A stretch of 20,538 bases of DNA from positions 1 through 20,538 of IMG/VR virus record IMGVR_UViG_3300025132_000395; one strand, written 5' to 3'. This DNA comes from a virus. A program made the position numbers and the translations under genes. Below are positions 5,830 through 16,608 of this stretch, piece after piece. The notes under the pieces were generated by a model, which saw nothing but the letters and a program-made list of their open reading frames with translations, searched no databases and was not told where the DNA came from. Position 1 is the first letter of the stretch. The number at the start of each line of letters is the position of its first letter.

Positions 5830-5857
5830 TTGACAAAGTGTAGTCATGGGGTGTAAT
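5830..5857 (+). promoter_or_regulatory. Probable rightward promoter of the early small-gene block
   Basis: TTGACA (5830-5835) and TGTAAT (5852-5857, five of six) are 16 nt apart. The predicted start near 5865 is about 30 nt upstream of the ATG at 5898, which rules out the in-frame ATG at 5856 as the gene start. Confidence 0.55.
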
Positions 5858-5897
5858 GTATACCCATAACGTAACCACAATCAAAAGAGGTGATATT

Positions 5898-6058: not shown

Positions 6059-6089
6059 GGTGCAATGTGCTATCGTGGTGCATTGCACC
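6059..6089 (+). other. Stem-loop between early genes
   Basis: GGTGCAATG (6059-6067) and CATTGCACC (6081-6089) are exact reverse complements around a 13-nt loop. No T-run follows, so a strong intrinsic terminator is unlikely; RNA processing, attenuation or an operator are alternatives. It fills most of the gap before the gene at 6126. Confidence 0.55.
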
Positions 6090-6125
6090 CCATGAATACA
6101 CTTAAACCAACAATAGAGGTGAATT

Positions 6126-11667: not shown

Positions 11668-12435
11668 ATGAATAATATATATAACATTATAAGTGATATA
11701 GATATACCTAATGGACAGACTAAACGTATGGATTGTCCTAACTGTGGTGGCACAAAGACATTCACTGTAACCAATAATCTAGGTTCTCTTGTGTGGAACT
11801 GTTACAAAGCCTCTTGTAATGTACGTGGTGGTAATCGTGTACACTTAACAGTGGAAGATATACGTACCAGTATGAGTAATGCGCAGCACTTTGCTGAAGA
11901 GCAGTTTGAATTACCTGAATACGTTGTCCCATACCTGAGTGATAAAGCAAAAAGTTGGTTAGACTCTTGGGGTATTTATACAAACAAACTAAACTTTATG
12001 TATGATGTAAAAGAAAATCGTGTGGTGTTTCCCGTAATGCACAATAACAAAATTGTAGATGCTACAGGACGTGCTTTGAGTAATCGTTTGCCTAAGTGGA
12101 AACGGTATGGAAAAAGTGGCTTGCCTTTTAACTTTGGTTGTGGTAAAGTCGCAGTTGTTGTTGAGGACTGTGTGAGTGCAGCCGTTGTTGGTTACGGTTC
12201 CTTTGTCGGGGTTGCGCTTCTTGGTACATCTCTACAAGATTCGCATAAAGGGTATCTTGCACAGTTCTCAACAGCAGTTATAGCGTTAGACCCCGATGCG
12301 CTACCAAAGACTTTGCAAATGGCAAAGGAACTACGTGGACATGTAAACGATGTTCGTGTCCTACGTTTGAAGGATGATTTGAAATATCGTAACCCGACAG
12401 ATATGGAGAACTTAAATGGAATTGTCGATTATTAG
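11668..12435 (+). CDS. DNA primase (T7 gp4 N-terminal-like)
   Basis: Encodes 255 residues. An N-terminal zinc site is visible: C23, C26 (DCPNCGG), C45 and C50 (NCYKASC). A TOPRIM domain follows, with the acidic residues E166 (VVVEDCVSAA) and D208/D210 (ALDPDAL). It should synthesise RNA primers for lagging-strand copying. In T7 the primase and helicase are one protein; here the primase stands alone and the helicase is the next gene, overlapping by 20 nt. Two alternative upstream starts are not in frame; AAAGTGAG precedes the ATG. Confidence 0.85.
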   Translation: MNNIYNIISDIDIPNGQTKRMDCPNCGGTKTFTVTNNLGSLVWNCYKASCNVRGGNRVHLTVEDIRTSMSNAQHFAEEQFELPEYVVPYLSDKAKSWLDSWGIYTNKLNFMYDVKENRVVFPVMHNNKIVDATGRALSNRLPKWKRYGKSGLPFNFGCGKVAVVVEDCVSAAVVGYGSFVGVALLGTSLQDSHKGYLAQFSTAVIALDPDALPKTLQMAKELRGHVNDVRVLRLKDDLKYRNPTDMENLNGIVDY

Positions 12436-13648
12436 AAGCCTAATGGATAAATCATTCTATGATGACCATCGTGGTAGCAAGTGTCCACCACGTTTGTTCA
12501 GCAAGGATGCACGTAAAATTAAAGAAGCTATTGATACAGCCATGGATAGGTATGAGCGTACTGTCTCACCAGATGAAGTTGAGGCATTGTTTATATCTAA
12601 TAACCCCACGCTGACTACAGCACAGAAGCAAGCCTATGCTTCTATGTTTGCTTCTATCAAACGCGAACAGCCTATGGGCAGTGACATAGCACAAGAGGTG
12701 TTATCTAAGCTGTTCCAACAAGTAGTAGGCGAGGATGTAGCTAACATTGGATTTGATATGGTTAATGGTGATGCAGCCACGCTAGAGAAACTACGTAATC
12801 TGCTAGAAAAATACGGGGATGACTTTATTCCTAATCTTAATATTGAGTGGGATGATATTACTATCGAAACCCTCATGTCAAAAGCAGAGTTAGAGGCACG
12901 TTGGACATTCAACATACCATGCGTGACTATGAAGGTAGAAGGTGTTAGCGGTGGTCAGCTTATCGAAGTAGGTGCTAGACCCAATACAGGTAAGACATCC
13001 TTCCACGCTAGCTTGATTGCTGCACCGGGTGGCTTTGCACATCAGGGTGCTAAGTGTATTATCTTGTGTAACGAAGAGCCTACACACAGAGTTGGCGCAC
13101 GTTATCTAACTGCAGCAGCAGGTATGTCAGCAAGGGAAGTTAAAGATAACATGGCTAAAGCTAAATCATTATACGAACCAGTAATGAATAATATTAAAAT
13201 AAAAGAGGCTGGTGGTCGTGACATGGCTTGGGTTGAATCTGTATGCAAATCATACAAGCCAGATGTGTTAGTGTTGGACATGGGTGATAAGTTTAGTGCA
13301 GATGGTAATTTTGCTAGGCAGGATGAGGCACTCAAGGCTTGCGCTATATATGCTAGACAGATTGCTAAGACGTATGACTGTGCTGTATTTTATATGTCAC
13401 AGTTATCTGCAGAAGCAGAGGGTAGGTCACAGCTTAATCAGTCTATGATGGAAGGCTCACGCACAGGTAAAGCTGCTGAAGCTGACCTGATGATACTGAT
13501 TGGTAAGAGTCCAGCCAAAGATAAAATAGAGGGCGAAGAAGAAGATAGCCCACTACGTCATATTAATGTAGTAAAAAATAAGTTGACAGGCTGGCATGGT
13601 ATGGTAAACTGTAACCTAGATTATTTAACAGCGAGGTACACAGACTAA
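12416..13648 (+). CDS. Replicative DNA helicase (DnaB/T7 gp4 family, RecA fold)
   Basis: Encodes 410 residues. Residues 1-165 form an N-terminal helical region; the RecA-type motor occupies about 170-410. Walker A is GARPNTGKT (186-194), the catalytic Glu pair is E220-E221 (CNEEP), Walker B is VLVLDMGD (D288), and MSQLSAEAEGR (327-337) with GSRTGKAAEADLM (347-359) gives the later motifs including the arginine finger region. Homologues are hexameric 5'-3' helicases moving on single-stranded DNA. The gene starts within the primase end and ends as TAATG with the polymerase, so the three replication genes are coupled. Confidence 0.85.
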   Translation: MELSIIRSLMDKSFYDDHRGSKCPPRLFSKDARKIKEAIDTAMDRYERTVSPDEVEALFISNNPTLTTAQKQAYASMFASIKREQPMGSDIAQEVLSKLFQQVVGEDVANIGFDMVNGDAATLEKLRNLLEKYGDDFIPNLNIEWDDITIETLMSKAELEARWTFNIPCVTMKVEGVSGGQLIEVGARPNTGKTSFHASLIAAPGGFAHQGAKCIILCNEEPTHRVGARYLTAAAGMSAREVKDNMAKAKSLYEPVMNNIKIKEAGGRDMAWVESVCKSYKPDVLVLDMGDKFSADGNFARQDEALKACAIYARQIAKTYDCAVFYMSQLSAEAEGRSQLNQSMMEGSRTGKAAEADLMILIGKSPAKDKIEGEEEDSPLRHINVVKNKLTGWHGMVNCNLDYLTARYTD

Positions 13649-15690
13649 TGAAACTTACTCTTGACGTAGAAAACACAGTAACTAAACGAGATGGCAAGAT
13701 GCATCTTGACCCCTTTGAGCCAGAGAACTCACTGACCATGATTGGTGTATTGACTGACCAAGACGTAGAGCGACACTTCCCATTTGACCATTGTGACGTA
13801 CCTAATCAACAACATTTCCATGAGCAGGTGCAATGGTTTTTAGATGAAGCTACCATACTTATCTGCCACAATGCTGCGTATGATTTGATGTGGTTGTGGG
13901 AGTCAGGCTTCAAGTATGACGGGCCTGTGTTCGATACAATGCTTGCAGAGTATGTGCTACAGCGTGGCATCAAAGAGCCGTTGTCTCTTGAGGCTTGTGC
14001 AGAGCGTTACGAACTGGATACCAAAAAGCAAGATACTCTTAAAGAGTACTTTGCCAAGGGCTATACTACCCGTGACATACCATACAACGAGTTGTGTGAG
14101 TACCTGTCTGCTGACCTCAATGCTACGCAGCAGTTATGTGATAAGCAGGTAAAGCGGCTACACAGTTGTGATGATGCTGGGCTATTGAATACTGTGTTGC
14201 TAACTAACGAGGTAGCTGTGTGCCTAGCACGTATCTATCAGCGTGGCTTTGCTGTTGACTTGTCAAAGTTAAACGAGGTTCGTGACGAGTTTGTTGCAGA
14301 AAAAGAACAGATAGAAAAGAGATTAAAAGAACAAGTTATTGAGTTGATGGGTGACACACCAATTAATCTCAACAGTCCAGAGCAAATGTCTTGGGTAATT
14401 TATAGTAGAAAGCCAGACGATAAGGCTATATGGGCAAATATGTTTACACCCACCATGTCTAAGACAGAGTTTACACACACGGTAAATAGTCATTCATCTA
14501 TAATGTACAAGACTAAAGCTGGTCAGTGCTTTGCGTGTTATGGTACAGGCAGACAAAAGAAACTGAAGAAAGATGGAACACCGTATCTCAAAATGCCTAT
14601 ATGTAAAGAGTGTAATGGTGTTGGCTACAGGTTTACTCCAACCAAGTCTATCGCTGGCCTTAGATTTAAAGCACCTAATCCAAAGTGGATAAGTGCCAAT
14701 GGGTTTAGTACTAATAAAAAGATGCTAGAGATACTAGCTAACTCTGCTAAGAAGAGTAGCTTTGATAGAGCAGAAAACTTTTTGAATGATGTGCAGAGAC
14801 TATCTGCTTTAGATACATACCTTTCATCTTTTGTTGAAGGTATCCAGACGCACACCAAACAGGACGGTAAGTTGCATGTGCGTTTGCTTCAGCATCGTAC
14901 GGCTACTGGCAGGTTCAGTGGTGCAGACCCTAACATGCAGAACATGCCACGTGGCGGCACGTTTCCTGTAAAGAAAGTATTTGTGTCACGATTTGATGGT
15001 GGGAAAGTTATGGAGGCAGACTTTGCACAGTTGGAGTTTCGTGCTGCTGCCTACCTATCACAAGATGGAGTTGCTATTGAAGAAGTATCTACTGGATTTG
15101 ATGTACACGCATACACCGCTAAAGTTATTACCGATGCTGGTCAACCTACGGATAGGCAGACTGCAAAAGCTCACACGTTTGCACCGCTTTATGGCGCAAC
15201 GGGCTTTGGGAGAACGCCAGCGGAAGCTGCATATTATGAACACTTCACAAAAAAATATAGAGGAGTCAGAGAATGGCATACCAGACTGGCTGAAGAAGCT
15301 ATGACTAAGAAAAAGATTACTACACCTAGTGGCAGGGAGTTTTCTTTTCCAGAGGTTTATAGAAAGTCTAGTGGAACTATATCGCATTTTACACAAATTA
15401 AAAACTATCCTGTGCAATCATTTGCCACAGCAGATATAGTGCCTATAGCCATGTTACATATAGACGAGCTATTAGGTAATATGAAATCTTGTATAGTAAA
15501 TACGGTGCATGATAGTATAGTTATAGACGTGCATCCAGAGGAAGAAGCTAATGTAATTAAGGTGATAGACGACACAAATAAAGCATTGCCTTATCTAATT
15601 ACTCAACGATGGGGTGTAGAATTTAATGTTCCTCTACTTTTAGAAGCAAAAATTGGTCCGAATTGGCTTGACACCAAGGACATAACCTGA
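13648..15690 (+). CDS. Family A DNA polymerase with DnaJ-like zinc-finger insert
   Basis: Encodes 680 residues. The 3'-5' exonuclease part is N-terminal: D6/E8 (LDVEN), N75 and D79 (CHNAAYD), Y152/D156 (YLSAD). Polymerase motif A is MEADFAQLEFR (D458, E463), motif B is R503, K507, F511 and Y515 (RQTAKAHTFAPLYG), and motif C is H621-D622 (NTVHDS). Between them, residues 294-326 hold two CxxCxGxG units, CFACYGTG and CKECNGVG, like the central zinc region of DnaJ. That insert is a recalled marker of HMO-2011-type phages. The residue at the E. coli Phe762 position is Phe511. The gene starts with TAATG at the helicase stop, and its stop is followed by a promoter. Confidence 0.92.
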   Translation: MKLTLDVENTVTKRDGKMHLDPFEPENSLTMIGVLTDQDVERHFPFDHCDVPNQQHFHEQVQWFLDEATILICHNAAYDLMWLWESGFKYDGPVFDTMLAEYVLQRGIKEPLSLEACAERYELDTKKQDTLKEYFAKGYTTRDIPYNELCEYLSADLNATQQLCDKQVKRLHSCDDAGLLNTVLLTNEVAVCLARIYQRGFAVDLSKLNEVRDEFVAEKEQIEKRLKEQVIELMGDTPINLNSPEQMSWVIYSRKPDDKAIWANMFTPTMSKTEFTHTVNSHSSIMYKTKAGQCFACYGTGRQKKLKKDGTPYLKMPICKECNGVGYRFTPTKSIAGLRFKAPNPKWISANGFSTNKKMLEILANSAKKSSFDRAENFLNDVQRLSALDTYLSSFVEGIQTHTKQDGKLHVRLLQHRTATGRFSGADPNMQNMPRGGTFPVKKVFVSRFDGGKVMEADFAQLEFRAAAYLSQDGVAIEEVSTGFDVHAYTAKVITDAGQPTDRQTAKAHTFAPLYGATGFGRTPAEAAYYEHFTKKYRGVREWHTRLAEEAMTKKKITTPSGREFSFPEVYRKSSGTISHFTQIKNYPVQSFATADIVPIAMLHIDELLGNMKSCIVNTVHDSIVIDVHPEEEANVIKVIDDTNKALPYLITQRWGVEFNVPLLLEAKIGPNWLDTKDIT

Positions 15691-15729: not shown

Positions 15730-16608
15730 ATGAATCAAGTAATGACTATTGACACAAACAACTTTGGCGAAATGGCTAAAGCTATGGGTATTGCTAATGA
15801 AGCACCTGCTGCTAAAAAGCAGGGTGTGTTTCTTGCCCGTCTCAGAATAAACCACTCACCTATTCTTGGCTCTGATACTATTAAAGTCAAGGGCGGTACT
15901 TATAAGCTAGAGATTCCTGATGGCCCTGTTTATTATGCAGAGTCTGCTATCATGCGTCCATTCCTGCAACGCTTTATGTATAAAAAGTTTGTTATGGGTA
16001 GTGGTGGTAGTCCCAATCGTTATGTTAAGACTGTCATGGCTGACACGCTTAACTTGGACTTAAAGGATAATGATGGTGGCTTTAATTGTGGTAAACCTGC
16101 TGGTTGGATTGAAGATTTTAATTCACTACCCGATGCTACAAAGGAACTAATACGTTCTATTAAACGAGTTCGTGTGGTGATAGGAACCGTGCAACTTACT
16201 AATGCAAAGGATGTGGATGGTAAAGATGTGGAAGTTGGAGCCACTCCGTTTATCTGGGAAGTAGAAAATCGTGATGCATTTAAAACTGTGGGTTCTGTAT
16301 TTACACAACTAGCAAAGATGAAGCGTCTACCTGTGCAACACAATGTTACGTTGAATACAGAAGAGCGTAAGTTACCTAATGGTAATAGTTTCTATTTACC
16401 TGTAACATCTTTGGATGTTGCAAATAGCATTGACCTTACTCAAGATGACCAAAAAAAGTTTGCTGACTTCATGTCTTGGGTTACTAATTATAATCAGTAT
16501 ATCATTAATGCTTATACAGAAAAGACATCACAAAAAGCTGACGAGGCTTTAGATGATTTAGATATGGATGGGGTTGTTGATATCGAGTTTGAAGAAGAGG
16601 TGGCTTAA
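15730..16608 (+). CDS. Putative single-stranded DNA-binding protein
   Basis: Encodes 292 residues; AAAGGAG lies 8 nt before the ATG. Beta-rich segments (VFLARLRINHSPI, VKGGTYKLEIPDG, RVRVVIGTVQLT) suggest an OB-like core, and the protein ends in a strongly acidic tail (DEALDDLDMDGVVDIEFEEE). Acidic tails are typical of phage SSBs such as T7 gp2.5 and T4 gp32, where they contact polymerase and helicase. Its place right after the polymerase, with its own strong promoter, fits. Sequence identity to a known SSB was not established, so a different replication-accessory role remains possible. TAATG junction with the next gene. Confidence 0.6.
   Translation: MNQVMTIDTNNFGEMAKAMGIANEAPAAKKQGVFLARLRINHSPILGSDTIKVKGGTYKLEIPDGPVYYAESAIMRPFLQRFMYKKFVMGSGGSPNRYVKTVMADTLNLDLKDNDGGFNCGKPAGWIEDFNSLPDATKELIRSIKRVRVVIGTVQLTNAKDVDGKDVEVGATPFIWEVENRDAFKTVGSVFTQLAKMKRLPVQHNVTLNTEERKLPNGNSFYLPVTSLDVANSIDLTQDDQKKFADFMSWVTNYNQYIINAYTEKTSQKADEALDDLDMDGVVDIEFEEEVA

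Follow-up and report, generated by a model that had tools for sequence, protein, structure and literature searches.

A putative zinc-stapled insertion at the thumb tip of an HMO-2011-type phage DNA polymerase

Introduction

What does a pair of CxxCxGxG motifs, reminiscent of the chaperone protein DnaJ, do in the middle of a phage replicative DNA polymerase? The question is raised by a 20,538-nucleotide stretch of viral DNA (positions 1 to 20,538 of IMG/VR record IMGVR_UViG_3300025132_000395; hereafter, the window), in which the plus-strand gene at 13648-15690 encodes a polymerase of 680 amino acids. An earlier note, made from the letters of this DNA alone, had described a DnaJ-type zinc finger between the exonuclease part and polymerase motif A of this protein, and had likened it to the thioredoxin-binding loop of T7 DNA polymerase. 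HMO-2011-type phages are reportedly among the dominant marine phage groups, and it is by the insert that their polymerase is defined. In excerpts of three papers from 2019-2022 (PMC6918029, PMC8528129, PMC9038755), HMO-2011-type polymerases are defined by a "partial DnaJ central domain" with two CXXCXGXG motifs, a partial DnaJ-like stretch that the excerpt of PMC9038755 places between the exonuclease and polymerase domains; the GenBank record of Puniceispirillum phage HMO-2011 likewise notes PF00684 in the polymerase. The architecture is already known for the whole HMO-2011 group, and the same excerpts report no function for the insert. Here, we add its exact insertion site, a zinc-less relative, its separation from the T7 loop, a comparison with the antitermination protein Q and UvrA, and its conserved charge.

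Results

The product of 13648-15690 matched the Pfam families DNA_pol_A (PF00476) over residues 350-674 (E 8e-53; 180.2 bits against a cut-off of 34.3) and DNA_pol_A_exo1 (PF01612) over residues 41-169 (E 3.6e-8; 33.8 bits against a cut-off of 23.6). In a 44-row alignment, the exonuclease acids D6, E8 and D156 were invariant, as were D458 of motif A, R503, K507 and F511 of motif B, and H621 and D622 of motif C. Both Pfam scores exceed their cut-offs and the catalytic motifs are intact, as expected of a family A polymerase with a 3′-5′ exonuclease, which substantiates the family assigned in the earlier note. Pfam and the alignment delineate the 3′-5′ exonuclease domain, with its invariant DxE motif (D6/E8), at residues ~1-170 (13648-14157, plus strand), and the remaining thumb, palm and fingers with motifs A, B and C at 14695-15669 on the same strand. 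The best PDB fold matches of the AlphaFold2 polymerase model were the large fragments of Bacillus and E. coli Pol I, and the protein is 71% identical over its full length to the polymerase of HMO-2011. The residue F511 (window 15178-15180) is an invariant phenylalanine in the 44 rows and, by our own reading of the alignment, presumably the counterpart of E. coli Pol I F762 and T7 Y526. The Pol I F762-equivalent site is used as a life-style marker in virioplankton studies.

The gene order of the window is that of HMO-2011, namely integrase, primase, helicase, polymerase, two conserved proteins, endonuclease I and RNR. Directly upstream of the polymerase lies a DnaB-like helicase (12416-13648, plus strand; phrog_19, E 1.5e-47, and Pfam DnaB_C), whose gene overlaps that of the polymerase by a single base, the first of the start codon; a T7-like acidic tail was looked for in this helicase and not found. 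Judged by the sequence of its polymerase and the order of its replication module, the window is an HMO-2011-type marine phage, and the kinship proposed in the earlier note is upheld by 71% identity, the same motifs and the same replication gene order. Replication modules can, according to the excerpt of PMC8528129, recombine with other structural modules. Matches were also found in bacterial metagenome-assembled genomes (MAGs), where identically named HMO-type contigs had been binned in a Flavobacteriales MAG and a Neomarinimicrobiota MAG; because the same contig was binned under two phyla, these matches are best read as phage contigs and not as host evidence. Elsewhere in the window, a 23-nt inverted repeat (5836-5858 and 6081-6103; 91% complementary, 222 nt apart) lies between the leftward and rightward gene blocks and possibly marks regulatory sites, and a 30-bp tandem repeat of 2.9 copies (1946-2032) adjoins leftward ORFs.

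Translation, motif search and alignment located the first CxxCxGxG unit, CFACYGTG, at C294-G301 (14527-14550, plus strand) and the second, CKECNGVG, at C319-G326 (14602-14625, plus strand), exactly where the earlier note had put them. Two units arose in none of 200,000 shuffles of the polymerase, and at least one unit in 102 shuffles. Across 90 aligned homologues, C294, C297, C319, C322, G299, G301, G310 and G326 were invariant. Moreover, all four cysteines were kept in 266 of 266 near-full-length HMO-type polymerases, a sample drawn from IMG/VR contig scans seeded with four different subgroups together with named phages; the loss of cysteines in close homologues, which the earlier note had set as a refutation, was not seen. 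Because the cysteines are invariant although both TGT and TGC are in use at each of the four positions, purifying selection on the residue itself is indicated. The second unit is, group-wide, strictly CxxCxxxG, with T, A, K or S in place of its middle glycine in 51 of 258 cases, and the sequence around the insert is more variable than the catalytic core among the 90 homologues. From these motifs, we infer zinc binding by a predicted C4 module.

An AlphaFold2 model of the polymerase, computed from 44 relatives with no metal or DNA placed, reached a mean pLDDT of 90.6. In the modelled thumb, INLNS comes after a long helix (205-234) and leads to a short helix (244-252); the insert separates this short helix from a further one (357-369). 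The location given in the earlier note, between the exonuclease and motif A, can thus be narrowed to the thumb subdomain, where these last two helices enclose the insert. The insertion, at residues ~255-351 (14410-14700, plus strand), stands where ordinary Pol I has a short loop at the thumb tip, according to the model and to an hhalign comparison with the polymerase of the Stenotrophomonas phage StenR_269. Within it, the model, together with weak matches to DnaJ and Q, points to a zinc beta-ribbon with strands at 287-293 and 327-335 and the four cysteines between them (14506-14652, plus strand). The pLDDT of the insert block was 78-94, with the cysteine-bearing tip less certain at 78-79.

The StenR_269 polymerase was the closest zinc-less homologue found; it is collinear with the protein studied here (hhalign E 1.9e-94) and has a short loop where the insert would be. 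Therefore, the zinc module enlarges the thumb tip of an otherwise ordinary family A polymerase by ~75-85 residues. In StenR_269, a protein annotated with a thioredoxin domain is encoded two genes upstream of the polymerase (record positions 1-54 and 254-2098), which may hint at another solution to processivity. Polymerases of the StenR_269 type and of Zobellviridae (ICP2, MEP401) are homologous family A enzymes without the zinc module, and those of the Zobellviridae type carry another, K/G-rich insert (consensus GHYKTGxRxGEVKYKW) in the same slot. Homology between this insert and the zinc module was rejected, residues ~279-351 being essentially unaligned by hhalign; with a different insert in the same place, the slot is thus a site where phages attach accessory elements. 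The S-beta-alpha-R motif of Thermus phage G20c was considered as a precedent and dropped, as it sits towards the end of its exonuclease domain and its presence in the same slot was not established. The polymerases of Alcaligenes phage QDWS535, Vibrio phage ICP2 and Methylophilales phage MEP401 are each encoded by two genes, split just before motif A, with a 77-aa ORF between the two genes in MEP401.

Between the cysteine pairs, charge counts and alignment columns revealed a basic spacer at residues 302-318 (14551-14601, plus strand) with conserved K305, K307, K308 and G310; at both 305 and 307, all 90 homologues have K or R, and 89 of them have K at 308. Over all 258 inserts, the net charge of this spacer ranged from +3 to +11 and averaged +5.9, against 0 to +2 for the corresponding inner spacer in DnaJ (six sequences of other genomes, a small control) and -1 to -4 for three UvrA fingers. 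As for the template, processivity partner or host factor named in the earlier note as possible targets, the sequence points to nucleic acid or an acidic partner rather than to DnaK.

The profile search proposed in the earlier note did return DnaJ_CXXCXGXG (PF00684) at residues 289-329 (E 0.024), but its scores, 15.3 bits on scanning the protein and 18.6 bits on searching the genome, remained below the curated cut-off of 32.7. PF00684 was the best Pfam match of the insert and was matched at E ≤ 1 by 42 of the 44 alignment members (best, 1.5e-6), the match corresponding to the inner motif pair of DnaJ. DnaJ itself has four CxxCxGxG units, which make up two zinc sites. When PDB sequences were searched, antitermination protein Q came first for the insert alone (E 0.07), and a profile built from nine inserts matched DnaJ of human and E. 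coli at E 0.005 and Q at E 0.015, all of them weak matches; among annotated phages, tblastn with the insert found nothing but HMO-type polymerases at E < 1. Pfam identified no J domain in the polymerase. With two motifs, scores of 15.3 and 18.6 bits, and no J domain, membership of the DnaJ family or of the J-domain co-chaperones was rejected. Of the DnaJ-type finger described in the earlier note, the two motifs and the weak PF00684 match stand; the implied chaperone surface does not, given a single C4 site, no J domain and about equal matches to Q. A fair statement, on sequence, is that the insert appears to be a C4 zinc ribbon of the kind seen in DnaJ, Q and UvrA.

Downstream of the polymerase, the gene at 15730-16608 (plus strand) encodes a 292-aa protein that is conserved at this place in HMO-type phages, has an acidic C-terminal tail and is a possible single-stranded DNA-binding protein (SSB). 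The mean net charge of the last 20 residues was -7.2 in 228 homologues, compared with -1.6 for all ORFs longer than 150 aa in the loci, and its AlphaFold2 model reached a pLDDT of 86.6, with a core above 90. No significant PDB match was obtained by fold or sequence, SSB chains appearing at E ~0.2 with poor TM-scores, and no PHROG of known function matched convincingly. The neighbouring SSB named in the earlier note was consequently not borne out; with a conserved acidic tail and no significant PDB match, its identification as a proven SSB was rejected and stays a guess, and the protein is possibly a new type of phage ssDNA-binding protein.

Discussion

Because the thumb tip of family A polymerases holds and tracks the duplex behind the active site, the module at this position most likely extends the grip on the duplex. 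Two studies cited in the excerpt of PMC10061031 illustrate what the thumb tip contributes: E. coli Pol I without it bound DNA less well, was less processive and had a lower frameshift fidelity (Minnick 1996), and Pol I gained processivity when it was given the T7 thumb loop (Bedford 1997). In the mechanism we propose, the short thumb-tip loop of Pol I would be replaced by an insert whose C4 zinc-stapled beta-ribbon carries a strongly basic tip; the module would extend the grip of the thumb on the primer-template duplex and raise processivity or strand displacement, and the basic ribbon may also dock an acidic replisome partner. We hold with moderate confidence that the insert is a zinc-stapled, basic thumb-tip element of a replicative polymerase that grips the duplex and perhaps docks an acidic partner. 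The analysis shows where the insert sits, that its cysteines are invariant, that a ribbon is predicted, that its spacer is consistently basic and that the nearest zinc-less homologue lacks it; its zinc, its contact with DNA and its effect on processivity we infer. A grip on DNA is likelier for the insert than chaperone work, and the basic surface would also fit the binding of an acidic protein.

This last property leads to an alternative in which the ribbon mainly docks a phage replisome protein, such as the acidic tail of the 292-aa neighbour. We regard such docking as unlikely, albeit worth serious attention, since a conserved neighbour with strongly acidic tails stands opposite a conserved basic spacer, and the thumb loop of T7 DNA polymerase docks the tails of helicase and SSB. 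A contact between thumb tip and SSB has also been predicted for a mobile-element polymerase, according to the excerpt of PMC10061031. However, acidic tails are common among phage proteins, the helicase tail is not acidic, and the neighbour, a putative SSB, has no PDB fold match. Recruitment of the host DnaK/DnaJ machinery appears improbable: PF00684 is the best Pfam match and covers the inner motif pair of DnaJ, and the excerpt of PMC9038755 recalls, with regard to the insert, that DnaJ is critical for lambda replication, whereas the score below the curated cut-off, two motifs in place of four, the missing J domain, a spacer charge unlike that of DnaJ and Q matches at comparable E-values all speak against it. 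Despite the four-cysteine likeness to one DnaJ zinc site, nothing supports a chaperone function.

The cysteines could also be the point at which a protein like thioredoxin or glutaredoxin binds or acts, or serve as a redox switch of the polymerase, as the thioredoxin on the T7 thumb might suggest. Glutaredoxin (GRX) is annotated in HMO-type genomes, as stated in the excerpt of PMC9038755, but the knuckle glycines are conserved as in structural zinc knuckles and the insertion site is not that of T7, which leaves the redox reading very unlikely. There is little more to be said for a zinc site whose sole role is to hold a long loop in shape. Loops are commonly stapled by zinc knuckles, and sequence variation is higher around the insert than in the catalytic core, yet in every subgroup the conservation of the basic spacer extends past the structural residues.

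Returning to the grip on the duplex, we tentatively raise the possibility, itself rather doubtful, that the insert is a built-in processivity clamp that works without a borrowed host protein, the role played by thioredoxin in T7, in one lineage across SAR116, Roseobacter and SAR11 hosts. An intrinsic clamp of this kind would be a way for family A polymerases to become processive without help from the host. The thumb-tip placement, the conserved basic spacer and the StenR_269 polymerase open the function of the insert to a simple deletion or mutation experiment.

Compared with known systems, the window shows no essential difference from HMO-2011-type phages, among which HMO-2011 is the nearest named phage; the polymerases of HMO-2011, CRP-1/2/3, HTVC033P and others are 37-71% identical and share domain order, cysteine motifs, their place and the neighbouring genes. 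The central cysteine-rich domain of DnaJ (PF00684) shares the CxxCxGxG pairs and a weak inner-pair match, whereas the insert has two units instead of four, equivalent to one C4 site, with a basic spacer, no J domain and a score below the cut-off. The zinc domain of Q (PDB 7ubj, 4mo1) has two CxxCxGxG-like units and a similar spacer (E 0.015 to 0.11), but lambda-type Q antiterminators are different proteins that act in transcription antitermination. T7 DNA polymerase is likewise a replicative family A phage enzyme with an accessory insertion in its thumb. In T7, the thioredoxin-binding loop comes after the long thumb helix and ahead of the NxxS-containing helix, which starts with FNPSS, whereas the HMO-type insert follows the counterpart INLNS helix and has no sequence similarity to the loop. 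Homology to the T7 thioredoxin-binding domain was thus rejected by position, and the analogy drawn in the earlier note holds for an accessory loop of the thumb, not for the same insertion: since the T7 loop and the zinc insert lie on opposite sides of the NxxS-containing helix, they are different insertions in the same subdomain.
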